Positions 13,398-29,682 of a stretch of 64,000 nt of DNA are shown here, piece after piece (position 1 is the first letter of the stretch; every line of letters begins with the position of its first letter). A model generated the notes under the pieces. It was not told the DNA's origin. It saw only the letters and a list, made by a program, of their open reading frames with translations, and ran no database searches. The stretch lies in contig CP151667.1 of the NCBI GenBank assembly GCA_038400315.1, positions 682,001 through 746,000 of the forward strand, given 5' to 3'. Both the position numbers and the translations under genes were made by a program. The DNA comes from Isosphaeraceae bacterium EP7 (GTDB taxonomy: Bacteria; Planctomycetota; Planctomycetia; Isosphaerales; Isosphaeraceae).

Positions 13398-14222
13398 ATG
13401 GAACTGCTGCTGCTCAGCTTCCTGGCCCTGCTCGCCTACTTCGCCCTCCGCTGGATGTCCACGGCGCGGTCATGGATGCTCGGCGGTCGGTTCGCCGCCT
13501 ACCGACACCTGGCCTCGAGGGTGAGCGGCCGTTACGAGGGGCGTGGCCTGTATGACCCGCCGACGGTCAGCTTCAACCACGAGGGGTCGAGCGTCAGGGT
13601 CGGGCTTGCCCCGCAGGTCCCCGGGCACCCGCCGCAGGCCAGGACCCGGGTGGTCGCCCGGTTCGCCGAGGGGATCCCGCTGAGGCTGGAGCTGGCGCCG
13701 GTCAACCGCCCCGCCCCGCCGCAGATTCCCCGAGGCACCCAGTTCGTGCGCTGCGGCGACGCGGCCTTCGACCGCGCCTTCGTGATCCAGGCCAACGACC
13801 CGGAGATGGCCCGCAGCTTCCTGACCCTGCTGCCCAGGCTGGCCATCGAGACCCTGGCCCGGATGGGGCCCCCCGGCGGGATGCTGCTGTCGGTGAACCC
13901 GGACCGGATGCTGGTGCAGGTGGACAAGAACTTCGGCCAGTCGGCCGAGGCGCTCTACGGCGTCGTCAGCCAGGCCCTGATGGTCCACGACGCGTTGCGG
14001 CAAGGGGTGCTGGCCCGGGTGAACCAGGGGATCTCGATCGTCGAGGTGGGCGCCCCGCACCCCGAGACCGGCCCGCCGATCTGCAAGGTCTGCGGCGAGC
14101 CGATCGACGGCCCGTCGGTGCTCTGCACGACCTGCAAGACGCCGCATCACGCCGACTGCTGGGAGTTCGTCGGGACTTGCTCCATCTTCGGCTGCCGGGG
14201 CAAGCAGGCGACGCCCGCCTGA
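13398..14222 (+). CDS. Membrane-anchored RING-type zinc protein (candidate E3)
   Basis: A 274-residue protein with an N-terminal TM helix (residues 2-20), a central domain (about 45-215) of unknown type that lacks Cys clusters, and a C-terminal treble-clef/RING-like zinc domain: C229-x2-C232, C243-x2-C246, H250/H251, C254, C261, C266. This Cys/His order matches the prokaryotic RING/PHD-like domains reported in bacterial ubiquitin-like operons. It is the first gene of a co-directional set followed by Ubl, E2 and E1 genes, which supports a ligase or adaptor role at the membrane. The 216-bp gap to the Ubl gene may contain a second promoter. Ligase activity is inference; a purely structural zinc domain is the alternative. 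Confidence 0.75.
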   Translation: MELLLLSFLALLAYFALRWMSTARSWMLGGRFAAYRHLASRVSGRYEGRGLYDPPTVSFNHEGSSVRVGLAPQVPGHPPQARTRVVARFAEGIPLRLELAPVNRPAPPQIPRGTQFVRCGDAAFDRAFVIQANDPEMARSFLTLLPRLAIETLARMGPPGGMLLSVNPDRMLVQVDKNFGQSAEALYGVVSQALMVHDALRQGVLARVNQGISIVEVGAPHPETGPPICKVCGEPIDGPSVLCTTCKTPHHADCWEFVGTCSIFGCRGKQATPA

Positions 14223-14438
14223 GCCGCTCGTGCCGGCCGCCCGGAATCGCCGCGGGGCCATTCCTGGAGGGACGGCGTCTCAGTATCATGGAGGCACCCG
14301 GCCCATGCGTTGGCCCGGGGCCCGGTCGTCCGGAGCATCCACCCCCCGGGCGAGACGACGGGCCGACGAAATTCGGAGCATCGGGCCGGAATATCGGCGG
14401 GCCCGGGACGAATCGGATGCAGAGGAGGTATCCCGACG

Positions 14439-14732
14439 ATGTCCTATGGTAGCCCTGCCGATCCCAGCGGAATCCAGGTGACCTTCCTGGACCAGACCGG
14501 CGCCAAGAGCGTGAAGGCCGTCATCGCCTTCAGCGTCCCTGTCAGCCGGATCTTGCCAAACATCATCACCAAGATGAACCTGCCGGCGACCAGCCCCGAC
14601 GGCCAGCCGATGAGCTACTCGCTCGACCACAAAGAAGGGGGCAAGCGCCTGCTCGAGAACCAGACCCTGGTCGAGGCCAACGTCCGGGACGGTGACCACC
14701 TGATCGTGTACCCCGAGGTGGTGGCCGGCTGA
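14439..14732 (+). CDS. Ubiquitin-like modifier ending in Ala-Gly
   Basis: A 97-residue beta-grasp protein: strand GIQVTFLDQTGAKSVKAVIAF, helix SRILPNIITKMNLP, then MSYSLDHKEGGKRLLENQTL and DGDHLIVYPEVVAG. The order of strands, helix and the LxENQTLVEANVRDGDHL segment matches YukD/EsaB-like and ubiquitin-like folds. The chain ends in VVAG, so a C-terminal glycine is already exposed and no processing protease would be needed before E1 activation. An AGAGGAGG ribosome-binding site lies 8 nt before the ATG, which fixes the start. The genes that follow are E2 and E1, which identifies it as the conjugated modifier. Targets are unknown. Confidence 0.85.
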   Translation: MSYGSPADPSGIQVTFLDQTGAKSVKAVIAFSVPVSRILPNIITKMNLPATSPDGQPMSYSLDHKEGGKRLLENQTLVEANVRDGDHLIVYPEVVAG

Positions 14733-14789
14733 CCCAACCCCCCGAGCGGCGACGCCGCCGACCCAACGCCCGAGCCGAGCCCGAGGCCC

Positions 14790-15452
14790 ATGAGCTACGA
14801 GTCGCCGCGCATCCGCCGCCTCCGCAACGACCTGCTCGCGCTGGAGCGCCTGACCGGCGAGAGCTCGGTCTTCCGCTTCAAGGCCTCGGGCAAGCCGCCG
14901 CAGACCTTCCTGATCGAGTTCCGCGGGCAGGGGCTGGCGCGTGAGCGGGGCAAGATGGTCGTCCGAGACACCCACGAGATCGAGGTCAAGCTCGACGCCT
15001 CGTATCCCCGGACGATGCCCAACCTGCGCTGGGTCTCGCCCATCTATCACCCGAATATCTCCGAGATCGGCATGGTCTGCCTGGGCGGGTACGGCACCCA
15101 TTGGGTCCCCAGTCTGATGCTCGACGAGCTCTGCGTGATGCTCTGGGACATGGTCCGTTACCACAACTACGACATCCGCAGCCCCTACAACCGCGAGGCC
15201 GCCTTCTGGGCCGCCAACCAGACCAGGTTCACCTTTCCGCTCGACACCAGGCCGCTGCGAGACCGCCGCGTGGCCCTCGGCCGAGTTGACCACTACCCCG
15301 CGGCCGAAGCCATCCCCCTGCCCGGCCCGACGACCGAGCCCGACCGCGGCTCGATGATCCAGATTCTCGACCTCGAGCTGGACCTGAACCCGCGCAAGGC
15401 CCCGCCGCCGAGCCCCGGCCGCCCCGACTCCGACGTCTTCTTCCTCGACTGA
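14790..15452 (+). CDS. E2 ubiquitin-conjugating enzyme-like protein
   Basis: A 220-residue protein with a remarkably canonical UBC fold: YPRTMPNLRWVSPIYHPNI carries the Y-P...P spacing and the HPN motif (residues 87-89), followed by GMVCLGG with the predicted catalytic Cys97, then THWVPSLMLDEL (W105, P107), and the helix-2 type SPYNREAAFWAANQ. It would accept the Ubl from the E1 as a thioester and pass it to a target or to the RING-type protein. Residues from about 160 form an extra C-terminal tail ending in acidic DSDVFFLD, absent from minimal E2s. It is 57 bp after the Ubl gene and 67 bp before the E1 start. Confidence 0.92.
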   Translation: MSYESPRIRRLRNDLLALERLTGESSVFRFKASGKPPQTFLIEFRGQGLARERGKMVVRDTHEIEVKLDASYPRTMPNLRWVSPIYHPNISEIGMVCLGGYGTHWVPSLMLDELCVMLWDMVRYHNYDIRSPYNREAAFWAANQTRFTFPLDTRPLRDRRVALGRVDHYPAAEAIPLPGPTTEPDRGSMIQILDLELDLNPRKAPPPSPGRPDSDVFFLD

Positions 15453-15519
15453 CCGGTCCGGAATGGGCCCGGGGCCCTCCGACGCGACCCGCGCGAACCC
15501 GCGAGATCGGCCACCCACG

Positions 15520-16740
15520 ATGGACGACACGCTCCGCTTCCTCGACGACGAGACCGACCTCACCACGGGCGCAGGCCCCGAGGCCGGCGACGACGCCCCG
15601 CTGATCATCGACGACGACGACCGCTACGGCCGGCTTCGCCTGATCCCCTGGTGGCGGCAGGAACGGCTCGCCGCGTCGAAGATCCTGGTGGTGGGCGCCG
15701 GGGCCCTGGGCAATGAGGTCCTTAAGAACCTGGCGCTCGTGGGGGTCGGCAAGGTCTACGTGATCGATCTGGATGCGGTCGAGCCGTCGAACCTGTCCCG
15801 CTCGGTCCTCTTCCGCGCCCGCGACGCGGGCCTGGGCAAGGCCGAGGTCGCCGCGCGGCGTGCCGCCGAGATCAACCCCGACGTCCGGCTCGTGCCGCTG
15901 CGGGGCGACGTGATCACCGACGTGGGCCTGGGCCTCTTCGCCGAGGTCGACGTGGTCATCGGCTGCCTGGACAACCGCGAGGCCCGGCTCTGGGTCAACC
16001 GCCAGTGCTGGAAGGTGACGACCCCCTGGGTCGACGCCGGCATCCAGGAGATCCAGGGGGTCGTCAAGGTCTTCGTCCCGCCCGACAGCGCCTGCTACGA
16101 GTGCGCCATGACGGCCCGCGATTATCAACTCCTGAACCTGCGCTACAGTTGCCCGCTGCTGACCCGCGAGCAGATGCAGCAGGGCAAGGTGCCCACGGCC
16201 CCCACGATCGCCTCGATGATGGGCGCCTTGCAGGTGCAGGAGGCCCTGAAGCTGATCCACGGCCTTCCCGTGGCCGCCGGCTCGGCCCTGGTCTTCAACG
16301 GGGTCAGCAACCAGTTCTACTCGACCAGGCTTCCCCACCGAGACGACTGCCTGAGCCACGAGACCTATCCGACCCCGACTCCCCTGCCCCTCTCCGCGAG
16401 CTCGCCCGCGTCCAACCTCTTCGCCCTGGCCCGCACGCACCTTGCGGGCCCACTGACTTTGGCCCTGGACCGGGACCTGGTCACCACCATCGGCTGCCCC
16501 GCCTGCGGCTGGACGACGGACGTGTTCCGCCCCCGGACCAAGGTCCGCGCCGCCGAGGCCACCTGCCCCAGCTGCCGCACCGAGGCCCGCGCCGAGAGCG
16601 TCCACGAGGTGCCCGAAGGGTCGCCGCTGGCGGCCCGATCGCTGGCCGAGCTGGGCATCCCCGTCTACGACATCGTCAGGGTCGATGGACCCGACGAGTC
16701 GGCCTTCTTCCTGCTGGCCGACGACCGCCCCGAAGCCTGA
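15520..16740 (+). CDS. E1-like Ubl-activating enzyme (ThiF/MoeB superfamily)
   Basis: A 406-residue ThiF-fold enzyme: Rossmann GAGALGNEVLKNL (nucleotide binding, 59-71), VYVIDLDAVEPSNLSRSVLF (80-98), the GCLDNREARLWVNR segment (148-161), a CYEC pair at 192/195, and YSCPLL with Cys211 as the likely catalytic or zinc residue. A C-terminal zinc ribbon (C326/C329, C349/C352) follows and may recruit the Ubl or E2. It would adenylate the C-terminal glycine of the Ubl and load it on a cysteine. An in-frame ATG at 15463 would add 19 weakly conserved residues; neither start has an obvious ribosome-binding site. It is the last gene of the cluster and converges with the MMPL gene 16 bp away. Confidence 0.92.
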   Translation: MDDTLRFLDDETDLTTGAGPEAGDDAPLIIDDDDRYGRLRLIPWWRQERLAASKILVVGAGALGNEVLKNLALVGVGKVYVIDLDAVEPSNLSRSVLFRARDAGLGKAEVAARRAAEINPDVRLVPLRGDVITDVGLGLFAEVDVVIGCLDNREARLWVNRQCWKVTTPWVDAGIQEIQGVVKVFVPPDSACYECAMTARDYQLLNLRYSCPLLTREQMQQGKVPTAPTIASMMGALQVQEALKLIHGLPVAAGSALVFNGVSNQFYSTRLPHRDDCLSHETYPTPTPLPLSASSPASNLFALARTHLAGPLTLALDRDLVTTIGCPACGWTTDVFRPRTKVRAAEATCPSCRTEARAESVHEVPEGSPLAARSLAELGIPVYDIVRVDGPDESAFFLLADDRPEA

Positions 16741-16756: not shown

Positions 16757-19339
16757 TCAGTCGCCGACCATGACCAGCTCGGTCCTGGCCTTGGCCGGCT
16801 GCGTGCCGTTCTCGCGCCTGGGCGACTTGCGGGAATTCATCAGCCAGTGACCGCAGGGGACCAGCAGCGGCCTGACGAGCATCGCATCGACGGCGATGCC
16901 GATGACCAGCGCGAAGCCGAGCTGCCGGATGCTCTCCAGTGGGCTGGTCAGGAACGAGGCGAAGCTGCATGCGGTGATCGCCGCGGCCGAGCTGATCAGC
17001 CCGCCCGTCCCCGCAACCGCCCGGATGATCCCGCGCCTCAGCCCCGACGTCTCGACCTCTTCCTGGAGCCTCGCCATCAGGAAGACGTTGTAATCCACGC
17101 CCACCGCCACCAGCAGCACGAACAGGAAATACGGGACCTTCCAGTCCAGCCCATGCGACCCCAGCATCCCCACGAAGACGGCATGCGTGGCACCCAACGC
17201 GAACGCATATGTCAGCAGCATGGTCGCCACCAGGTTCAGGCACGCCATCACGTCCCGAAGCGCCACCAGCAGGACCACGAAGACGCCCGCCGGGATCAGG
17301 ATCCAGCTCTGCCACTGGTCGGCCCGGGTCATGCTGCGGATGTCGGCCGAGCCCGCATTGGGCCCCGCCAGGGTGGCCCGCGTCGCCGGCCCCGAGGCAT
17401 CGGCGAGGAAGTCATTCAAGATCCGCCGCAGCCGCTCGACCTGGTCGAGCGCGGCCTCCGAGAACAAGGGCGCGGCCTGCGCCAGGTCGATCCGGGCGCG
17501 TCGGCCGTCCCGGGAGATGTAGACGCCGAAGGCGCGGAGCAGCTCGGGGTGTGCCTTGACGGTCGCCTGATGGATCAGGAGCCGGTCCAGGGCACGCTTG
17601 CCCACCGGGTCGTCCAGGATGCCGGCGATCTCGTCGCGCCCCAGCTTCGCACCGTCGGCAATCTGCCCGGCGCCCTCGGCGGCGCGGGTCAGCTCGCGGA
17701 GCATCTCCTCGGCCGGCTTGGGGGTGCGGGCGTCGGTCGTGGACGCCGATCCGGTCAGCTTCAGGCCGGTCTTGGACTCCAGCCAGATCGCCGCCCGCAG
17801 CTTGCCCGCTCCCTGGTCCAGCCCCGCCCGCAACTGCGAGGCCCCCGCGGCGATCCGCCCCAGGCCGTCGCCCACCTGGTCGAGCCTCGAACCGAGCCTG
17901 GCCGATGCGAGCTGCTCACCCCGGCCCAGCGGCTGGGTGGCCGACCGCACCTCGGCGATTTGCTTTTGTCTTGCCAGGAACCGGCTCACGTCGTCGATCA
18001 GGGCCAGCCCTTCCGAGCTCCGCAGGTCGCCCACTGACTCCAGGACCACCGTCAAGGGGGCCGTCAGGCCGGGCCCGAACGCCTCGTCCACCCGCTTGAG
18101 CACCTCCACCGAGCGGGTCCCGCTGGGCAGCTCGGCGAGCATGTCATAAGTGATATGCGTCATGAACCCGTAGGCCGCCAGGGGCAGCATGAACGCCAGC
18201 GTCAGGGCCCAGTTCCGGCCCGGGCGGGCCATCGCCCGCCTGCCGAACGCGTGCCAGAAGCCGCTCGGCGCCGCGATCAGCCCCTTGAACGACGCGGGCC
18301 GTTTCTGCGCCAGCAAGACCAGCAGCGCGGGGGTCAGGGTCAGGGTGGCGGCCAGGGTCAGCATCAGGCCCAGGGCCACGCTCGGGCCGGTCCTGGAGAA
18401 CAGCTTGAACCGCGTCGTTCCCATCAGCAACTGCCCGATTATCACCGTCCCGGCGCTCGTCAGCAGAGCCAGGCTGCCGCGCCGCAAGGTGAGACGCATC
18501 GCCCCCGCGGGGTTGCTCGGCGTCCAGTGGTCGGCGTACCGCCACGACACGAACAGGCAGAAATCGGTCCCGCAGCCGAACAGCACGGCCACCAGGAATA
18601 GCTCCACCAGCGGCGAGACCTCCCAGCCGGCCACGACCAGCCAGGCCAGAATCCCGCGCGTCAGCAGCAGGCTTAGCCCGATCGTCGCCAGCGGGATCAA
18701 GGCCAGCCAGCACGACCGATAGACGACCAGCAGGACGCCCATCAGCAGCACGACCGTGGCGAGCGCCGCCCGATCGAGCGAGGCCTGCACGCCGGCCATG
18801 TAGTCGCGGCCAATCACCGCGTCGCCCGTCCAGCGCAGGGCCAGGCCTTCCGGCGCGGGCATTGCCCTGCTCTGGGCTTCCAGCCAGGCCACCGTCTCGT
18901 GCGACGCCGGCGCCACCAGTGACGTGGCCAGCGTGACGGCCAGCAACTGCATCGTCCCATCGCGCGAGACCAGCCGCTCGGCAAGTTCGGGTTCGCTGCC
19001 GGGGCCCAGGACCCGCAGGATGGGCGCCGGCCGAGGCTTCACGTCGAACCGACCGGCGAGTTTCCTGGCGAAGTCGCGGTCGGCCTCGGTCAGGCCCCCG
19101 GGCCGGCCAATCACCAGCGCGGCCAGCGAATCGAATGACTGCGCCGGCCATGTCTCGTCCACGATCTTCGCGGCCCGGACGCTCTCCGCGTCGCCGGCCA
19201 TCAGCTTGGCCTGCCCCTCGGCCGCAAGCCGGGTCAGGTTGGGCGAGGTCAGGCCCACACCCAGGGCCAGGACCACCCAGGCACTCACCACCCAGCCCGG
19301 ACGCCTGGTGACGATCGATCGCAGACGTTCGAGGCTCAT
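16757..19339 (-). CDS. MMPL-family RND transporter
   Basis: An 860-residue membrane protein with two MMPL halves, each with a TM helix, a large extracytoplasmic loop and a five- to six-helix bundle (e.g. LFLVAVLFGCGTDFCLFVSWRYADHW and VPYFLFVLLVAVGVDYNVFLMARLQEE, both with the conserved GxDYxxFL-type core). These proton-driven exporters move lipids, hopanoids or hydrophobic compounds. The second periplasmic loop contains a helical, coiled-coil-prone stretch (about 500-620). The ATG at 19339 (MSLERLRSIVTRRP) is chosen; a longer frame from 19510 is low-complexity. It is convergent with the E1 gene and probably unrelated to it. Confidence 0.92.
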   Translation of the reverse strand: MSLERLRSIVTRRPGWVVSAWVVLALGVGLTSPNLTRLAAEGQAKLMAGDAESVRAAKIVDETWPAQSFDSLAALVIGRPGGLTEADRDFARKLAGRFDVKPRPAPILRVLGPGSEPELAERLVSRDGTMQLLAVTLATSLVAPASHETVAWLEAQSRAMPAPEGLALRWTGDAVIGRDYMAGVQASLDRAALATVVLLMGVLLVVYRSCWLALIPLATIGLSLLLTRGILAWLVVAGWEVSPLVELFLVAVLFGCGTDFCLFVSWRYADHWTPSNPAGAMRLTLRRGSLALLTSAGTVIIGQLLMGTTRFKLFSRTGPSVALGLMLTLAATLTLTPALLVLLAQKRPASFKGLIAAPSGFWHAFGRRAMARPGRNWALTLAFMLPLAAYGFMTHITYDMLAELPSGTRSVEVLKRVDEAFGPGLTAPLTVVLESVGDLRSSEGLALIDDVSRFLARQKQIAEVRSATQPLGRGEQLASARLGSRLDQVGDGLGRIAAGASQLRAGLDQGAGKLRAAIWLESKTGLKLTGSASTTDARTPKPAEEMLRELTRAAEGAGQIADGAKLGRDEIAGILDDPVGKRALDRLLIHQATVKAHPELLRAFGVYISRDGRRARIDLAQAAPLFSEAALDQVERLRRILNDFLADASGPATRATLAGPNAGSADIRSMTRADQWQSWILIPAGVFVVLLVALRDVMACLNLVATMLLTYAFALGATHAVFVGMLGSHGLDWKVPYFLFVLLVAVGVDYNVFLMARLQEEVETSGLRRGIIRAVAGTGGLISSAAAITACSFASFLTSPLESIRQLGFALVIGIAVDAMLVRPLLVPCGHWLMNSRKSPRRENGTQPAKARTELVMVGD

Positions 19340-19606
19340 GATCGGGGGAGACTCCCAGGCTATCGACGCCGGGCGTTGTCCCCTCAAAGCCCCCAAGCCC
19401 CGCATCGTGCGGGTCATGGCGGGACCGTCGCGGGACCGGCGGGCCGCGACGCGAAAGGAGTGGGCGAGACCGGCAAGCCCGATTCGACGAGGACGAGCGA
19501 CGCGATGCATCCTTCATCGGATCGAGAGTCACGGACACGTTAGGACGATTGTGAGGATTTACGCAACCCCTTATCGCAACGAAAAGTCGTCCCAGAACAC
19601 CGCTCT

Positions 19607-20923
19607 TCACTCGCTTCGCGCCGGTCGAGATCCTCCACCGGCCGAGAACAGCCCCTCGTACCACAGCGGCTGGCCCGTTTCCCACGGCCTGTAGGCGTTG
19701 CAAAAGTCGATCCGTTCGCCGATGGACGGGTGCGTGGACCGCCAGAATTTCACCAGCGGGTGGGGATACGGGATCGACAGATTCTCGCCCTGTAGCTTGG
19801 CGAACGCCAGCGCCGCGGGCCGGTTGGCCCGGATCAGCTCCAGCGAGAACCGGTCGGCCTCGTGCTCCTGCGCCCGGCTGTACGCCAGCGCCACCGGAGA
19901 GGTCAGCAGCGCCACCCCCTGGATCAAGACCGCCAGCAGCGGCAAGGCGGCCGGATCGTGCAGCACCGAGATGCCTAGCGACGGGCCGAACCGTCGCAGC
20001 GCGGACCCAGCCAGGCGATGCACCGCATACAGGACCAGCAGGGCACCGAAGGTGGACAGGGCGATGCTCCGCACGACGTGGCCCAGCACATAATGCCCCA
20101 TCTCGTGGCCCATCACGGCCAGCACCTCGTCGGGCTCCAGCTTCGCGATCAGGGTGTCCCAGAGCACGATCCGCTTGGTGCCCATGAACCCGGTGACATA
20201 AGCGTTCACCGTCTTCGTGTCGCGGCTCTTGTCCACCTCGAAGACCCGGCTCCCCTGGATTCCCGCCCTCGACGCCAGGTCCAGGATGCGCCCTTCCAGC
20301 GCCCGGTCCTTCATCGGGCCGAACTCATTGAACAGGGGGTCGAAGGCGATCGGCTTGGCCAGCAGCGTCAGGCAGAGCAGCGGCAAGACCAGCAACCCGG
20401 CCCAGAGCCACCAGAGCCTGGGGCTCCGGCGCAGCAGCCAGAACGGGATCCAGGCCAGCAACGGCGCCAAGACCAGGGCCACCGCCGTCCCCTTCGCCAC
20501 GTTCCCCAGCCAGTGCCCCAGCGTCTGCACCGACAGCCCGTACGCATGCGGCCGGACATACCCCAGGTAGTAGCCCAGGGGCAGGTCGACCAGCTCCGTC
20601 AGAAGAATGTAGAGGACGACATACCCGCCCACGATCAGGGGGCCGAATCTCAATCGCCCGGCCAGGTCGCGCATCCGCACCGACGCCCCGCTCGCCAGGA
20701 TGACCAGCGGCACGGCGAACGACCAAGCCATCCCCGCCAGCCAGAGCATGTTCCCCGTCCGGTGGTACTCCACTGCCCGCGCGGTCGGCTCGGGCACGGG
20801 GACCGGGGCCTCGACGACGGCCGGCGCAGGGGCGGCGGCGGGGCTTTCGCCGCGTGCCGTCGTCGCACATAGATAGAAGCAAGCAAGGCAGGCAACGATC
20901 AGGCGGGCGGCTGCATTCAGCAT
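19607..20923 (-). CDS. M48 family (Ste24/CAAX-like) membrane zinc protease
   Basis: A 438-residue protein with a signal or TM segment at the N-terminus, further TM helices between about 60 and 200, and a cytoplasm- or periplasm-facing metalloprotease domain with HEMGH (about 273-277) in VMGHEMGHYVLGHVVRS and the third zinc ligand in AQEHEADRFSLEL. The combination with the N-terminal Peptidase_M48_N-type helices matches the Ste24/HtpX-like group, which degrade or clip membrane proteins. The ATG at 20923 lies 29 bp after the JAB gene stop on the same strand; an upstream TTG at 20956 would overlap that stop. Likely co-transcribed with the JAB gene, suggesting a linked envelope function. Confidence 0.92.
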   Translation of the reverse strand: MLNAAARLIVACLACFYLCATTARGESPAAAPAPAVVEAPVPVPEPTARAVEYHRTGNMLWLAGMAWSFAVPLVILASGASVRMRDLAGRLRFGPLIVGGYVVLYILLTELVDLPLGYYLGYVRPHAYGLSVQTLGHWLGNVAKGTAVALVLAPLLAWIPFWLLRRSPRLWWLWAGLLVLPLLCLTLLAKPIAFDPLFNEFGPMKDRALEGRILDLASRAGIQGSRVFEVDKSRDTKTVNAYVTGFMGTKRIVLWDTLIAKLEPDEVLAVMGHEMGHYVLGHVVRSIALSTFGALLVLYAVHRLAGSALRRFGPSLGISVLHDPAALPLLAVLIQGVALLTSPVALAYSRAQEHEADRFSLELIRANRPAALAFAKLQGENLSIPYPHPLVKFWRSTHPSIGERIDFCNAYRPWETGQPLWYEGLFSAGGGSRPARSE

Positions 20924-20952
20924 CGGGCGTCGGCTCGCGGTGTCGGGAGAAA

Positions 20953-22320
20953 TCAACGGGACGGCTCGTCGGCCGCCATCGGCTTCGGGTCGCGGCGGGA
21001 GAGCAGCGCGAACAGGCTGGCGATCAGCACCCCGGACGTGATCCAGCCCGCAAGGGCGGAGTACCAGGCGGTCGAATAGAGGCCCACCAGCGCGACGGCC
21101 CCCTTGCCGTCCAGGGCGTCGAGGGCTAGCTCCTGGTCGGCGATCGTCCGGGCCTGCCGGTCGGCCTGGCCGGTCACCTCGTCGACCTTCGCGCGGAGCG
21201 ACTTCGCCTCCTTCGAGTCGGCCTCATACTTCTTGGCCGTCTCGGTCGCGGTGGCCAGTTGGGCGGCCGCCTTTTCGTAAGAGGCGCGCGACGCCCTGAG
21301 ATCCTCGGCCATCGCCTGGTTGGCCACGAGCTGACCTTCGAGCCTGACCTTCGCCTCGTCGCGCTCCCTGGCCGCCTTGCCGTACTGGGCCACTAGCTTC
21401 TCGGCCGCCGCCTCGCCCAGTTGATCGTTCAGCGCATCGATCGCCATCCGGCTCGCGTCCTTGGCGACAACCATGCCCTCCTGTGCCTCCGACAGCGACC
21501 GCAACTGGTGGGTCAGTTGGTTGGCCCACATCACGGCCATGACGAGCGCCACCCCCCCCAGGATGCCGAGGAGGCCCGCGAGCGAGGCGATTCTCGGGGT
21601 CTCCCCGTGGCGCATTGCGTGGCCCTGGTTCCGCGTCCCGGAGAGCATGGCAACAAGCTCCGCTTCGAGTCTGGGGGAGAGGCCCGCGCCGCCCGGCTCG
21701 GACTGGGGCACCGACTCAAGGTCGTTCACCGTCCGCGCCAGCGCCGACCGATCGGCCCGGGGCGCAACCACATGGAAGCCTTCGAGTTGCACCAGGCCGC
21801 CGTCGCGCGACTGGAAGAACCCTCGCGCCATCCGGATCGGGTCGATCACATAGGCGACCTGCAACGGCTGGCCGAAGAAGCTGTTGTGCAGGAACTGGTC
21901 GTGGCCCGAGAGGAAGATGCCGAAGTCGGGATGCGTATGATACCAGCCGACGATGTCCAGGTCGGGGTACTTCGCCTCGCGTTCCCGGGTGATCTCCTCC
22001 CAGGCGTCGTGCGTGTACGTGAAGCTCGCCTGGGTATTCTCGTAATGCCGGGCTTCCAGCGACCGCGTGACCCAGACGAACGGCAGCCCCGTCCGGTCGT
22101 CGATCCCCTCGAACCCCAGCATCACCCCGCCCAGCTCCACCGACGTATCCGACAGCGCGTGCCGCTCCATCGAGTCCACCGCGACCCGATCCACGAACAC
22201 GGGCAAATCCCGCGGCCCGGGTGTGCCGCAGGCCAGGCAGGCCCAGCGCGCATCGCCGTCCGGCCGCCGCATCTTCCGCGGCTCGCGGTAGGTCACCTCA
22301 TTGAAGACGATCTCATCCAT
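20953..22320 (-). CDS. Membrane JAB/JAMM (MPN) protein, candidate deconjugase
   Basis: A 455-residue protein. Residues 40-185 form a JAB/MPN metalloprotease domain with the full JAMM signature: Glu62 in VELGG, H128-T-H130-P, S138 and D141 in HTHPDFGIFLSGHD. A short CLACG motif lies just before it at 28-32. Two TM segments follow (about 247-265 and 410-440) enclosing a coiled coil (about 275-400). JAMM enzymes of this type remove ubiquitin or Ubl chains or trim precursors. The ATG at 22320 is preferred; a GTG at 22539 would run through a hairpin and add non-conserved residues. The Ubl-E2-E1-RING cluster lies 4.2 kb away on the other strand, so a functional link is inferred, not shown. Confidence 0.88.
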   Translation of the reverse strand: MDEIVFNEVTYREPRKMRRPDGDARWACLACGTPGPRDLPVFVDRVAVDSMERHALSDTSVELGGVMLGFEGIDDRTGLPFVWVTRSLEARHYENTQASFTYTHDAWEEITREREAKYPDLDIVGWYHTHPDFGIFLSGHDQFLHNSFFGQPLQVAYVIDPIRMARGFFQSRDGGLVQLEGFHVVAPRADRSALARTVNDLESVPQSEPGGAGLSPRLEAELVAMLSGTRNQGHAMRHGETPRIASLAGLLGILGGVALVMAVMWANQLTHQLRSLSEAQEGMVVAKDASRMAIDALNDQLGEAAAEKLVAQYGKAARERDEAKVRLEGQLVANQAMAEDLRASRASYEKAAAQLATATETAKKYEADSKEAKSLRAKVDEVTGQADRQARTIADQELALDALDGKGAVALVGLYSTAWYSALAGWITSGVLIASLFALLSRRDPKPMAADEPSR

Positions 22321-22535: not shown

Positions 22536-23996
22536 TCACTTCTTCTCGGACTTCGCCAACTCGCGGATCGCCTCTCGCAGCTCCTTGATCTCGCGGCTCA
22601 GGTCGTCCAGCCGCTGGTCGAGCTTGCCCTGATCCTCGCGACGGGCAGTGTCCGCGAAGGTGAGGTTGGTAAACGCCTGCCCGACGACGGCCGCCGGATC
22701 CCTCGCGAACTGGCCATTCGCCGGATTTCCAAAGAGTCGGAAGGTCTGGCCCGCACCCTCGAACGCCCTGCCTTGTTCGAGCTGAAGCTGCCGGAACGGC
22801 ACTGCGGCCGGGATACTCTCCCCTGGTCGCCGGGCCGAACGCGCTGCCGTGGAACTCCTCACCGCCGTCTGGTCGGACTGGATCGTCATGAGGAGATGAG
22901 GCACGGGCTCGATGGTCACGGTCTGTGGCTTCCCGGTCCTGAACAACATCACCTCGACCGGGTTCTTGCCGGCGCTCTGCACGGCGTTCCTCATCGCCTG
23001 GGGATCACGCAGCGGCTTGCCCGCCATCTCCGTAAGGATGTCGTTGACCTTCACGCCCGCCTTCTCGCCGGGGCTATCCTTCGCCACGTCATTGACGATC
23101 AAGCCCTGGCCTTGCGGCAGGCTGAGCTGGGATTTGATCAGGTCGTCCACCTCGGAAACCGAGACGCCGATCCAGAACGCGGTCGACACGTCCTCGACGG
23201 GGTCGATCTGGACTTTGAGCCTGGGCCTGACCTTGATGGTGATCGGCTTGCCGCCGCGCAGGACCTTCAGCTCGGCCGGCTTCTCGGCCCTGGCCTTCAG
23301 CTTCGAGATCAGCTCGCCTTGATCCTTGAGTGGCTCCGAATCGAGGTTGAGGATGATATCGTTGACACGGAGGCCCGTTTTCGCCGCCGGGCTCTCGGGG
23401 CTGATCCCCGAGACGACCAGACCCTGGCCCTCGGGCAACTCCAGGTGGAGTCGGATCGCGGCATCGGGGGCCGTGAGGTTCAGGCCAAGCTCGTTGTTCA
23501 GGCTGATGACGTAGGAGATGCGGCTTACGGCATCCTGGCCCGGAGCCGGGTCAATCGTGATGACACCCAGCTGCGGTCGTTCGGTCTTCACCCCCCCCTG
23601 CGCGATGGTATAGGCCGGGACCTGCTCCGACCGGGACTTCGAGGAGGAGACCGTCACCTTGCCGAGCTTGAACTGATCCTGAATGGGCTCGGCGAGCCTC
23701 AGCACGGTCCTCGCCGAATCAATCTCGATGTCGCCCGCGTTCTTCTCCGCCTGGATGGCCTCATCGCGGACCGACGCGATCCGATCGGAGAAGCGACCCT
23801 CGGGCGTCCCGTCTCCGCTCGAAGCGGGCGAACTGTCGGGCCGCCTTGCGACCTGGCCTTCGATTCGGACGCCCTTGATCACGGTGTTCTCGCCGGGTTC
23901 CTCGGCGGCCCAGGCGGCGGGAGCGAGGCCGGAGGCGCCGAGCAGGGCGAACGCGAGGCGACGGGCCGTTTTAAGTGAAGATCGCTGAGAAGTCAT
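22536..23996 (-). CDS. Exported double-PDZ protein without protease domain
   Basis: A 486-residue protein with a signal peptide (ARRLAFALLGASGLAPAAWA), a region of about 160 residues without known motifs, two PDZ domains (about 180-270, with GLVVSGISPESPAAKTGLRVNDIILNLD; and 280-370, with GLIVNDVAKDSPGEKAGVKVNDILTEM), and a C-terminal coiled coil (RREDQGKLDQRLDDLSREIKELREAI). There is no His-Asp-Ser triad, so it can bind but not cut. PDZ domains usually recognise C-terminal tails. It lies 57 bp after the anti-sigma gene on the same strand, suggesting it senses or scaffolds envelope signals for that pair. ATG at 23996; a GTG one codon upstream is possible. Confidence 0.85.
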   Translation of the reverse strand: MTSQRSSLKTARRLAFALLGASGLAPAAWAAEEPGENTVIKGVRIEGQVARRPDSSPASSGDGTPEGRFSDRIASVRDEAIQAEKNAGDIEIDSARTVLRLAEPIQDQFKLGKVTVSSSKSRSEQVPAYTIAQGGVKTERPQLGVITIDPAPGQDAVSRISYVISLNNELGLNLTAPDAAIRLHLELPEGQGLVVSGISPESPAAKTGLRVNDIILNLDSEPLKDQGELISKLKARAEKPAELKVLRGGKPITIKVRPRLKVQIDPVEDVSTAFWIGVSVSEVDDLIKSQLSLPQGQGLIVNDVAKDSPGEKAGVKVNDILTEMAGKPLRDPQAMRNAVQSAGKNPVEVMLFRTGKPQTVTIEPVPHLLMTIQSDQTAVRSSTAARSARRPGESIPAAVPFRQLQLEQGRAFEGAGQTFRLFGNPANGQFARDPAAVVGQAFTNLTFADTARREDQGKLDQRLDDLSREIKELREAIRELAKSEKK

Positions 23997-24056
23997 CACT
24001 CGTTGTCCTGAATGCCTGTGAAGGCCCCGGCATCGTGCCAGGGCGACGGGGCGGGG

Positions 24057-24680
24057 TCAGAGGGCCTGGATGCCCACATATTCAAAGGAGACCTGATCGA
24101 CGGGCACCTCCAGGAGGCGGCCGTCCTCGAGAGGGACGTCCACGAGCATCCGCCGCTGCTCGACCTTGTAGCCCTGGCTAGCGAGCTGACGCCGGACGTG
24201 GCCGGGGATGGCGTTCATACCGTGGTCGAATTCCTCAGCATGCGGATTCGAGGCGAGTTCGGCGGATTCAGGCGCCGGCGTCTCCACGAGTGGTTGGGGC
24301 GATGTGATCGGGACGGAAGACGCGATCGATGGCCGATCCGGGGGCGTCGGGCGGTTGGCCAGCAGGCCGGCGCCGAAGGCAGACGCCAGGAGACTGGCGG
24401 CGAGGCCGTATTTCAGGATCGAACGGAGCGGGCGCCTTGCGGCGGGAACGCGGAGGGGCGAATGGAAAGGGATCGTCGCGGCCGGATGGTCGGCGAGCGG
24501 GGCGAGGGCCTGGGTCCAGGCTTGCGCTTCGAGGAAGGCCAGGGCGCAGCGGCGCCAGCCTTCGAGGTCGGCTTCCAGGGCGAGCAGGAGCGCGCGGCGT
24601 CGGTCGTCGTCGAGGGTGCCGTCGACCAGGGCGTCGATGGACTCATCGGAGATGGCGTTGAGGTCGTCGTCGGCAGTCAT
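24057..24680 (-). CDS. Probable membrane anti-sigma factor
   Basis: A 207-residue single-pass membrane protein: cytoplasmic N-terminal part (residues 1-90) rich in acidic/Leu helices (ISDESIDALVDGTLDDDRRRALLLALEADLEGW), a TM helix at about 91-108 (YGLAASLLASAFGAGLLA), and a periplasmic part of about 95 residues. It lacks the HxxxCxxC zinc motif of many anti-sigma factors. Its ATG overlaps the stop of the sigma gene by four bases (ATGA), implying translational coupling, the main reason for this call. It would hold the sigma factor at the membrane until an envelope signal releases it. Confidence 0.75.
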   Translation of the reverse strand: MTADDDLNAISDESIDALVDGTLDDDRRRALLLALEADLEGWRRCALAFLEAQAWTQALAPLADHPAATIPFHSPLRVPAARRPLRSILKYGLAASLLASAFGAGLLANRPTPPDRPSIASSVPITSPQPLVETPAPESAELASNPHAEEFDHGMNAIPGHVRRQLASQGYKVEQRRMLVDVPLEDGRLLEVPVDQVSFEYVGIQAL

Positions 24681-25225
24681 TCGGGCACCTCGATGACGCT
24701 GGAGCGGGCGAGTTCTTGCCGCAGGCGGGCCCGGGATCGGTGCAGGCGGGCGTCGACCGCGTTGGGGGAGACGCCCAGGTGGTCGGCCAGGGCGCGGGCG
24801 GACCAGTTCTCGGTGTACTTCAGCAGGAGGATCTCGGCGTCACGCGGTGGGAGCCGCGCCAGGGCTTCGCGCACGGCCCGCTTCCGCTCGTCGGCCAGCA
24901 GCCAGCCGAGCGGGTCGGGCCGGCCTGATGTGTCGACTTCGGAGAGGCTGGCGTAGCGCTCGACCAGTCGGATTCGCCGGCCGAGGCCACGGCGATACAT
25001 CAGGGCTTGTCGCAACGCCAGGCGATAGAGCCAGGCTCCCACGCGGGCCGGGTCGGCCAGCGGTTCGCGGCGGGCGACGGCGGCGAGGGCGACTTCCTGC
25101 AAGACCTCCTCGACCGCCTGCGGGTGCCCGAGCCTGGCCCGCAGCACCGTCCGCAGCCATCGGCCGTGCTCGGCCAGGGAGGCGGCCCAGTCGATCGGGG
25201 TCGGCGGGTGGAGGTCGGGATCCAT
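24677..25225 (-). CDS. ECF-type RNA polymerase sigma factor
   Basis: A 182-residue sigma-70 family protein with region 2 (LGHPQAVEEVLQEVALAAVARREP...VGAWLYRLALRQALMYRR) and region 4 (ALARLPPRDAEILLLKYTENWSARALADHLGVSPNAVDARLHRSRARLRQEL) and no regions 1 or 3, so it is of the extracytoplasmic-function or SigZ/planctomycete ECF kind. It directs RNA polymerase to a small stress regulon that often includes its own operon. The following gene overlaps by 4 bp and is the likely anti-sigma factor. The upstream gene ends 89 bp before the ATG. Confidence 0.9.
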   Translation of the reverse strand: MDPDLHPPTPIDWAASLAEHGRWLRTVLRARLGHPQAVEEVLQEVALAAVARREPLADPARVGAWLYRLALRQALMYRRGLGRRIRLVERYASLSEVDTSGRPDPLGWLLADERKRAVREALARLPPRDAEILLLKYTENWSARALADHLGVSPNAVDARLHRSRARLRQELARSSVIEVPE

Positions 25226-27960: not shown

Positions 27961-28182
27961 GGGCCGGTGTGTCGCTCCGCGCAGGGGGTTAGAAGGAGAG
28001 TCGTCGGACTCGGGAGTCCGGGCTCCAGCCTAACGCGGGCGATGCTTCCGGGCCAGGCCCAAGGGGCGTGGCGCCAAGGGTCGGCGCGGGTTGATTTCGG
28101 GCTCGGGAGGGTCTAGGCTTTCCGGTTCGAGGACCGGCCGCGAACGTGGCGCATGCAGACGCCCCGCCCAGGAGCACCGCCG

Positions 28183-29682
28183 ATGGCGTCGTTTGAGCCC
28201 CAGGACGATTTCGACTACCTGGACGCGCCCCCAAGGCCGACCACCCCGCCGATCAGGCGCGGGTTCGTCGTCGTCTTCGGGCTGCTGGCCATCGCCGCCA
28301 CGCTCGTCTACGGCATTCCCTACCTGTCCGAGCAGATTGGCTATTCCTACGAGGTCGGCCGCAGCCGCGCGTCCATCGAGGCGCTCGCCAAGCTGGAGAA
28401 GGGCGGGCTCATCCAGGGGGCGTCCAACCTGTTCCGCATCGCCTCGAATGCCGTCGCGCCGGCCGTCGTCCACATCAGCACCCAGCGAAGGGCCAAGCTC
28501 GACGGCGACCGGATCGGCGAGATGCTCGTCCCGCTCGAAGTCGGCTCGGGCGTGGTGATCGACAAGGTTAACGGCTACATCGTCACCAACAACCACGTCA
28601 TCCGCGACCCCGAGCAGGGCCTTGCCAGCAGCATCAACGTCCGCATCGGCCGTGGGACCGAGATGCCCGCGCGGATCGTGGGCACCGACCCCAAGACCGA
28701 CCTGGCCGTGCTCCAGGTGCGCGGGGACATCAGGGTGGCCGCCGAGTGGGGCGACGCCGAGACCCTGGACATCGGCGACTGGGTGCTGGCCATCGGCAGC
28801 CCGTTCAACCTCGACCAGACCGTCACCGCGGGGATCGTCTCGGCCACCGGCCGGAGCAACCTGCGGCTCGGGGGCGAGGACGCCTACGAGGATTTCATCC
28901 AGACCGACGCGTCCATCAACCCGGGCAACTCGGGCGGCCCGCTGATCGGCCTTGACGGCAAGGTCATCGGCATCAACACCGCGATCTACTCGGAGAATGG
29001 CAGCAACCAGGGGATCGGCCTGGCCATCTCGTCGACCATGGCCAGGCGGGTGGTCGACCAGATCATCAAGAGCGGCAAGGCGGTCCGCGGCTATCTGGGT
29101 GTCCGCATCCAGAGCATCACCCCGGCCCTGGCCCGCGAGTTCAACCTGCCCGAGCCCCGAGGCGTGCTTGTTGAAGGAGTCCAGCCCGGCAGCCCCGCCG
29201 AGTCCGTCGGCCTGAAGGCCGGCGACGTGCTGGTCAGGCTCGGCGGCAAGCCCGTCGATGATCAGTCGGCCCTGCGTAACCGGGCCGCCTCGCTGGAGAT
29301 CGGCGCCAAGACCGCCGTCGAGTTCTACCGAGACGGCAAGAAGCAGTCGCTCGACGTCGTCATCGCCGAGCAGCCCGACTCGCGGCCCGGCCTCCTCTCG
29401 CTGGGCTTCACCGTCCAGGATATCACCGCCGAGCAGTCCGGCGGCCACCCCGGGACCTACATCGTCGCGGTCGCCCCCGGCAGCCCGGCCGCGGCCGCCA
29501 ACCTCCTGCCCGGCCTCCAGATCGTCGGGGTCGGCCGCCAGCCGATCAAGTCGAAGGCCGAGTTCGACCTATTCTCGGCAAAGTACGACCTGACCCAGGG
29601 GCTCCCGCTCCAGATCCGCGGGCCCAAAGGCCAGCCGGTCTTCGTCACCGTCGGCGGCCCCGACGGCGACGGACGCCGCTGA
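28183..29682 (+). CDS. HtrA/DegP-like serine protease with two PDZ domains
   Basis: A 499-residue S1C protease: N-terminal TM anchor at 28-48, trypsin-like domain with His138 (TNNHVI), Asp173 (DPKTDLAVL) and Ser250 (NPGNSGGPL), then PDZ1 (about 315-400, with GVLVEGVQPGSPAESVGLKAGDVLVRL) and PDZ2 (about 410-495). It would degrade or refold damaged proteins on the periplasmic side. The ATG at 28183 follows an AGGAG site by 9 nt; an in-frame ATG at 28153 has no such site. It diverges from asnB with about 220 bp between starts. In other bacteria such proteases process anti-sigma factors; the sigma/anti-sigma pair 3 kb away is a possible client, by inference only. Confidence 0.95.
   Translation: MASFEPQDDFDYLDAPPRPTTPPIRRGFVVVFGLLAIAATLVYGIPYLSEQIGYSYEVGRSRASIEALAKLEKGGLIQGASNLFRIASNAVAPAVVHISTQRRAKLDGDRIGEMLVPLEVGSGVVIDKVNGYIVTNNHVIRDPEQGLASSINVRIGRGTEMPARIVGTDPKTDLAVLQVRGDIRVAAEWGDAETLDIGDWVLAIGSPFNLDQTVTAGIVSATGRSNLRLGGEDAYEDFIQTDASINPGNSGGPLIGLDGKVIGINTAIYSENGSNQGIGLAISSTMARRVVDQIIKSGKAVRGYLGVRIQSITPALAREFNLPEPRGVLVEGVQPGSPAESVGLKAGDVLVRLGGKPVDDQSALRNRAASLEIGAKTAVEFYRDGKKQSLDVVIAEQPDSRPGLLSLGFTVQDITAEQSGGHPGTYIVAVAPGSPAAAANLLPGLQIVGVGRQPIKSKAEFDLFSAKYDLTQGLPLQIRGPKGQPVFVTVGGPDGDGRR

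Follow-up and report, generated by a model that had tools for sequence, protein, structure and literature searches.

A putative membrane-centred ubiquitin-like conjugation locus with a RING protein in Isosphaeraceae bacterium EP7

Prokaryotic operons combining a RING protein, an E2 conjugating enzyme, an E1 activating enzyme, a YukD-like ubiquitin-like modifier (Ubl) and a JAB isopeptidase were reportedly predicted by Burroughs, Iyer and Aravind in 2011, a line of work from which the Pfam family Prok-RING_1 stems; we know of no experiment on the bacterial ones. The bacterial Ubl conjugation that has been studied experimentally is mostly antiviral: related Ubl/E1/E2/JAB operons of the Bil type act against phages (PMC13373217), and Bub operons adjoin immune regulators (PMC12687455). 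In archaea, the Ub/E1/E2/srfp/Rpn11 operon of Caldiarchaeum works in vitro (PMC5654768; PMC6043591). Here we describe a locus in Isosphaeraceae bacterium EP7, lying within a 64,000-nucleotide stretch of contig CP151667.1 (positions 682,001 to 746,000; hereafter the window), for which an initial annotation had proposed a complete conjugation pathway of four co-directional genes with the E3 ligase at the membrane. The locus is of the kind predicted in 2011, with a Prok-RING_1 RING, an E2, an E1, a JAB protein and a YukD-like Ubl all present, and judging from its sequences it very likely encodes a Ubl conjugation system; set against the antiviral examples, it is a near-core, mainly vertical system with a RING E3 and a deubiquitinase-like enzyme.

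Components of the gene cluster

Four open reading frames (ORFs) on the plus strand were found where the initial annotation had placed the RING, Ubl, E2 and E1 genes (Table 1), and a Pfam check on UBC (PF00179), ThiF (PF00899), YukD (PF08817) and RING matched every family. Completeness in Ubl, E1, E2 and RING is thus supported by sequence, family, conservation and co-occurrence; the count of four did not stand, as a JAB isopeptidase belongs to the system too, and often an M48 membrane protease. The genes for JAB, M48 and an MMPL transporter, which belong to the cluster in relatives and had gone unmentioned, occupy 16757-22320 on the minus strand, with the JAB/MPN isopeptidase gene 4.2 kb downstream of E1. 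The 7.2-Mb genome has one copy each of the E2, Ubl, JAB and RING genes, and these four fall within 9 kb, a clustering that is far beyond chance.

Table 1. Positions of the genes, domains and rearrangement points discussed in the text, numbered from the first letter of the window.
Feature	Position	Strand	Basis
RING-type E3 candidate, 274 aa: N-terminal transmembrane (TM) helix, TtfA/CCDC47-like cytosolic domain, C-terminal Cys4-His-Cys3 RING	13398..14222	+	PF14446, AlphaFold, alignment of 27 relatives
Predicted TM helix of RING protein, aa 2-29	13401..13484	+	AlphaFold helix 2-29; hydrophobic aa 3-21 by hydropathy
Predicted TtfA/CCDC47-like domain, aa 31-210	13488..14027	+	AlphaFold model, Foldseek and VIA-align; DUF3137 in relatives
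RING zinc ligands C229 C232 C243 C246 H251 C254 C261 C266 (Cys4-His-Cys3)	14082..14195	+	
YukD-type ubiquitin-like modifier, 97 aa, ends ...YPEVVAG; Gly97 codon 14727-14729	14439..14732	+	PF08817 E 2.6e-15; conserved AG end
E2 conjugating enzyme, 220 aa; HPN, catalytic Cys97 (codon 15078-15080)	14790..15452	+	PF00179 (UQ_con) E 2e-12
E1 activating enzyme, 406 aa; ThiF adenylation domain, Cys211 (16150-16152) as candidate catalytic residue, zinc ribbon and another domain at the C-terminus	15520..16740	+	PF00899 E 7e-58
Inversion breakpoint 1, E1 stop adjoining MMPL stop	16741..16756		Gene order compared with relatives
MMPL-family transporter, last gene of inverted block	16757..19510	-	PF03176 E 1.2e-86
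M48 membrane metalloprotease (Ste24/HtpX-like, HExxH intact), 4-bp overlap with JAB gene	19607..20956	-	PF01435 E 1.6e-37, PF16491 E 2.1e-16
JAB/MPN (JAMM) isopeptidase, 455 aa: JAB domain, TM, coiled coil, TM	20953..22320	-	PF01398 E 4.5e-8
Inversion breakpoint 2 region, JAB start adjoining PDZ gene	22321..22535		Gene order compared with relatives; JAB start
PDZ protein	22536..23999	-	
Putative anti-sigma factor	24057..24680	-	
Extracytoplasmic function (ECF) sigma factor	24677..25225	-	
Trypsin-PDZ (HtrA-like) protein	28153..29682	+	

The modifier ends in glycine, as first described, and the beta-grasp fold assigned to it is suggested by its match to the YukD family, whose founder, YukD, is a beta-grasp structure. 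The C-terminal AG is invariant in 21 aligned Ubls and kept in a wider set; among relatives the C-terminus reads [YQ]PE[VI][VT]AG, after which come between 0 and about 25 variable residues. A conserved glycine with variable tails is what a modifier would need if the glycine is the reactive end and the tails are trimmed off.

In the E2, the segment IYHPN..GMVCL aligns with the HPN motif and active-site cysteine of yeast Ubc13 (phmmer E 8e-9), which places Cys97 where the initial annotation had it. Relatives keep HPN in 64-65 of 65 cases and the cysteine in 58 of 65, the cysteine-less ones being second or orphan E2 copies. Such second genes, with HPN and no catalytic Cys, stand in Pirellulaceae-type operons (L077 13463-14179, L082 5667-6464, L089 11910-12596), where the active/inactive pairing recalls Ubc13-Mms2; at three other loci (L073, L074, L076) degenerate E2-like genes without the catalytic Cys are orphans, with no Ubl, RING, E1 or JAB gene nearby.

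The E1 is 76% identical to that of Singulisphaera sp. GP187. Its AlphaFold model has a predicted local distance difference test score (pLDDT) of 89.6 and matches MoeB (Z 31.8) and UBA3 (Z 29.6), so that by structure comparison and alignment the adenylation fold and its residues are present. GAGALGNE, DNREAR, CYEC, Cys211, Cys277 and His280 are invariant or nearly so over about 50 loci, the sample used for residue conservation. The zinc ribbon recognized initially is formed by C326, C329, C349 and C352, all four kept in about 47 of 52 relatives. A UFD is reportedly to be expected in the C-terminus from the work of Burroughs, Iyer and Aravind; a C-terminal profile search of the PDB gave none at E 10, and structure alignments with UBA3, SAE2 and UBA1 that reach to about residue 402 are the only hint of one.

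Conservation and inheritance of the locus

The usual order in relatives is RING>Ubl>E2>E1>JAB>M48>(MMPL), the genes sharing one strand and an EamA gene lying upstream in divergent orientation, as in Singulisphaera acidiphila (locus L093) and Singulisphaera sp. GP187 (locus L092), and a synteny check across planctomycetes found gene order kept in Isosphaeraceae and Pirellulaceae. The EamA-RING-Ubl-E2-E1 part of the window has this layout, and JAB-M48-MMPL has the opposite orientation, filling the space from the E1 stop (16740) to the PDZ gene (stop 22536). One inversion in the EP7 genome (7.0-Mb contig) is the simplest account of this. As listed, the JAB ORF extends to 22539, and its conserved start codon is the ATG at 22320. 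That start lies 215 bp downstream, which led us to reject translational coupling between JAB and the PDZ gene. Scans for sigma-70 promoters and terminators gave nothing exceeding chance. After the inversion, the block sits downstream of genes for an ECF sigma factor, a putative anti-sigma factor and a PDZ protein, with a trypsin-PDZ gene farther on; these surroundings resemble an envelope-stress neighbourhood, one that was not seen in relatives.

Co-occurrence was assessed across the class in a sample of 298 genomes, 61 of which have the E2 family and 58 the YukD Ubl. All 58 carry the E2, and Prok-RING_1 (E 1e-3 or better) was detected in 56 of them, compared with nine over the cut-off in the remaining 240. 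RING genes that lie apart from the operon encode full-length orthologues with TM helix, middle domain and RING at 16 of 16 Isosphaeraceae loci tested, 14 in E2-carrying genomes and two (G040, G152) in genomes without a detected E2. The conserved co-occurrence on which the initial proposal hinged is therefore present, and its remark that complete sets with a RING are uncommon does not hold in this lineage: the E2 was found in 38 of 45 sampled Isosphaeraceae genomes (a single genus accounts for four of the seven lacking it), and hundreds of genomes carry an E1 relative. These relatives were found at 464 loci in GTDB genomes. Planctomycetes make up most of the best 80, which also include a few records under the names Abditibacteriales, Riflebacteria, Wallbacteria and Deltaproteobacteria; within those 80, JAB was present at 77, E2 at 77 and Ubl at 74, and E1, E2, Ubl and JAB occur together in nearly all. 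Culturable bacteria such as Singulisphaera, Isosphaera, Tautonia and Paludisphaera have the system.

This co-occurrence bears on whether the Ubl is conjugated to proteins at all, since the E1 resembles MoeB/ThiF and the Ubl falls in Pfam YukD, so that a sulfur carrier (ThiS/MoaD-like) or a part of type VII secretion (YukD-like) could be imagined. Such a role is very improbable: the Ubl is never without an E2 in the sample, no part in sulfur transfer is known for E2, RING or JAB, the genome has two other ThiF-family genes, and the lone WXG100 match lies 2.3 Mb away.

Within the family, pairwise distances track those of RecA for E1 (rho 0.53), JAB (0.66), RING (0.54) and E2 (0.36), with 0-1 of 999 permutations as high in a test that left out one RecA row (G096), and the E1 and RecA trees have 12 of 24 splits in common. 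Pairwise identity averages 86% for the Ubl and 88% for RecA, with 68% for E1, 62% for E2, 57% for RING and 48% for JAB. Inheritance in Isosphaeraceae thus appears to be mainly vertical, and the RecA-like distances and identities are what one would expect of a housekeeping system whose modifier is under strong constraint. A Bil- or Bub-like antiviral system, joining the Ubl to phage or host proteins in the course of infection, would be in keeping with the antiphage activity and immune context of the operons cited above; it is distinctly unlikely here, given a near-core, mainly vertical locus with stable flanks and a Ubl almost as conserved as RecA. PADLOC gave no match for Ubl, E2 or RING and weak ones for E1 and JAB (no BilA/B/C; BilD at 33.7 bits), no E1 relative was found in 2.9 million viral contigs, and no plasmid match was full-length, those seen being mostly MoeB/ThiF-like and covering at most about 80% of the query. 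Among the annotated neighbours, no defence genes were seen and no Bub-type immune regulators (CapW, CapH/P, CapK/S) noticed, the Bub models themselves not having been searched.

Two other arrangements were encountered. A second operon type runs Ubl-E1-JAB-(6-TM protein with C-terminal FHA-like part)-(zinc ribbon, 2 TM)-RING-RING-E2-(Cys-rich 2-3 TM protein, DUF2752-like by eye); it was seen at L047, L050, L055, L075, L078, L080, L083-L086 and L088, and is an extra copy in some Isosphaeraceae. Operons in E1-first or E2-JAB-first versions (L128, L129, L139, L148, L165, L171) belong by record name to Abditibacteriales, Riflebacteria, Deltaproteobacteria, Wallbacteria and two groundwater planctomycetes, and no RING of the Prok-RING_1/TtfA-like family was found beside these six loci.

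Membrane proteins of the locus

The RING protein matches Prok-RING_1 (PF14446) over the cut-off at E 1.5e-7 (aa 228-263 of 274), as do 27 of 27 relatives, in which seven ligand cysteines are invariant and the histidine is kept in at least 90%; the C-terminal Cys4-His-Cys3 zinc domain is thereby confirmed. Its AlphaFold model (27 sequences, pLDDT 89.8) matches RING/U-box/ZZ structures at Z 4-5 and has the N-terminal helix that bears out the membrane location proposed for the E3. The RING is predicted to face the cytosol because basic residues come after this helix. Similar TM-TtfA-like-RING proteins (L218-L221, in genomes G005, G035, G188 and G075) are orphan E3-like proteins in genomes without detectable E2 or Ubl, and G055 has a similar match.

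Between helix and RING, the model predicts a domain with a fold close to that of TtfA and CCDC47, a likeness of fold only. Foldseek returned TtfA (6t84) at E 1.2e-6 and a TMCO1 translocon chain (6w6l) at E 4.3e-3. With VIA-align, TtfA came top (6t84, Z 14.6, 159 aa, 3.7 A), along with 7tm3_4 (Z 13.1), 9i78_4 (Z 10.2) and 6w6l_7 (Z 10.0, 163 aa, 3.6 A); the next row stands at Z 8.5, and type III secretion chaperones follow at Z about 6-7. We take the latter three chains to be CCDC47 from their residue range and the known content of the entries, not from a chain table. The 9i78 range of 76-372 agrees with the CCDC47 residues 76-370 docked in PMC12572126, and CCDC47, a part of the endoplasmic reticulum (ER) multipass translocon whose loss attenuates ER-associated degradation (ERAD), is present in 6w6l (PMC7505659). 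Searches at the sequence level showed no connection between the RING protein and either CCDC47 or TtfA, no Pfam CCDC47 match was found in the RING proteins, and a literature search for CCDC47 together with TtfA found no paper. DUF3137 (PF11335) matches 17 of 27 RING proteins (best E 4.8e-6) within the TtfA/CCDC47-like region (aa 114-143 and beyond), and DUF3137 proteins may have this fold in common.

TtfA is a TM-anchored partner that binds MmpL3 (PMC6593404), and the RING protein has TtfA as its best structural match, with the same N-terminal TM and cytosolic domain. As an MMPL gene comes after M48 or JAB in about a dozen Isosphaeraceae loci (genes in relatives were called by a simple script, and M48 and MMPL counts are approximate), the RING protein might be a dedicated regulator of the neighbouring transporter that acts as TtfA does for MmpL3, with tagging setting the transporter level. 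This is a quite unlikely account, since Pirellulaceae operons have no MMPL neighbour, several Isosphaeraceae lack MMPL at this place, and the gap between M48 and MMPL is often 128-366 bp.

The JAB protein is the only JAB/MPN isopeptidase in the genome. Its JAMM motif (E, HxHx7SxxD) is intact, HTHPDFGIFLSGHD and the Glu being invariant in 53 sequences, and two TM segments flank a coiled coil of about 150 aa that is predicted to be periplasmic. We can say with good confidence that the E3 and the JAB protein are located at the membrane. The M48 protease, whose gene comes after that of JAB in many relatives, is itself an integral membrane protein. The same topology could also serve a non-degradative signalling modification linked to the membrane, for example one that tunes membrane enzymes or the cell envelope with the coiled coil of JAB as sensor. 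We consider this unlikely: it would suit a genome with no proteasome or HslV and the place of the JAB block downstream of the ECF sigma factor and PDZ genes, but that neighbourhood is not seen in relatives and the M48 link points to proteolysis.

Proposed role and relation to known systems

Modestly preferred over other readings taken together is a housekeeping, inner-membrane-centred system that attaches and removes the Ubl, with quality control or biogenesis of membrane proteins as its probable purpose, a role favoured because of the CCDC47/TtfA-like domain, the TM segments of JAB and the frequent M48 neighbour. In the mechanism that we infer, in its chemical steps as well as in client choice and role, the E1 would adenylate Gly97 of the Ubl, take it over as a thioester, probably on Cys211, and hand it on to the E2 at Cys97. 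Anchored in the membrane by its one helix, the RING protein would bind E2~Ubl through the RING and membrane-protein clients through the TtfA/CCDC47-like domain, so that the Ubl would become attached to membrane or membrane-near proteins. The JAB protein would take the Ubl off again and trim precursors with a tail past the glycine, and the coupled M48 protease may serve to clear away membrane proteins that are tagged or misfolded. Quality control of membrane proteins, taken by itself, is put forward tentatively and may well prove not to be the role.

Several observations weigh against this mechanism. No conjugate or thioester has been seen. The usual place of the E1 catalytic cysteine, which in UBA3 lies before TIAS, holds a proline here, and for this reason Cys211 is only a candidate for the thioester cysteine; it lies in the loop preceding that site, the part of the model with the lowest certainty (pLDDT about 70). 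The likeness to TtfA and CCDC47 is one of fold, at 5-12% identity and from a single predicted model, and is no proof of client binding because type III secretion chaperones share the fold more weakly. One genome that is 99% complete (G068) has the operon and no detectable RING. The Ubl distance matrix, taken alone, does not track RecA (rho 0.15, 94 of 999 permutations), probably due to a short, conserved sequence with ragged tails. M48 is no obligate part, since it adjoins JAB at roughly 20 of the 32 loci in Isosphaeraceae and does not do so in Pirellulaceae. Finally, no proteasome-family gene (PF00227), 20S or HslV, was found in the 99.9% complete genome, compared with 10 of 14 control genomes that have one, and any degradation would therefore need M48, FtsH or another protease.

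A farther-reaching proposal, speculative and rather doubtful, sees in the locus a bacterial equivalent of ERAD or the PAT/multipass translocon, in which a housekeeping CCDC47-type RING ligase tags membrane proteins with a slow-evolving Ubl, a membrane JAB edits and a Ste24-type protease clears, with CCDC47, TtfA and the RING protein forming one family of membrane-client handlers. If true, the locus would offer a prokaryotic model for membrane-bound ubiquitin-type quality control, and the predicted domain makes the action of a bacterial RING-Ubl system on membrane proteins a concrete, testable idea. A literature search for planctomycete Ubl conjugation found nothing specific. We did not find described, and regard as apparently new, the TtfA/CCDC47-like E3 domain, the link to M48 and MMPL, the inversion, and the near-core standing of the system in Isosphaeraceae with its RecA-like conservation, some of which the 2011 work may hold.

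The described systems each have part of this arrangement in common with the locus. Bil (BilABCD) likewise has Ubl, E1, E2 and JAB in one operon, but is antiviral, with a two-domain BilA and, as described, no RING, in contrast to the single-domain 97-aa Ubl and RING found here. The Caldiarchaeum operon comes nearer in content, with Ub, E1, E2, RING and a JAMM protein, but its RING protein is small and soluble rather than membrane-anchored and its modifier is ubiquitin rather than of the YukD type, the archaeal Ub being reached from our Ubl only at E about 0.1. YukD of B. subtilis and EsaB belong to the same Pfam family as the Ubl, but are parts of type VII secretion with no E2 partner, and B. 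subtilis YukD was reported not to be conjugated (PMC1779556). For the RING protein, the mycobacterial MmpL3 partner TtfA has the N-terminal TM, the same predicted cytosolic fold and an MMPL partner, but a disordered C-terminus, no RING and no known Ubl system, whereas CCDC47, of the ER multipass translocon and PAT complex, also places a cytosolic domain of the same predicted fold after a TM helix, but is eukaryotic, has no RING and ends in a ribosome-binding coiled coil.

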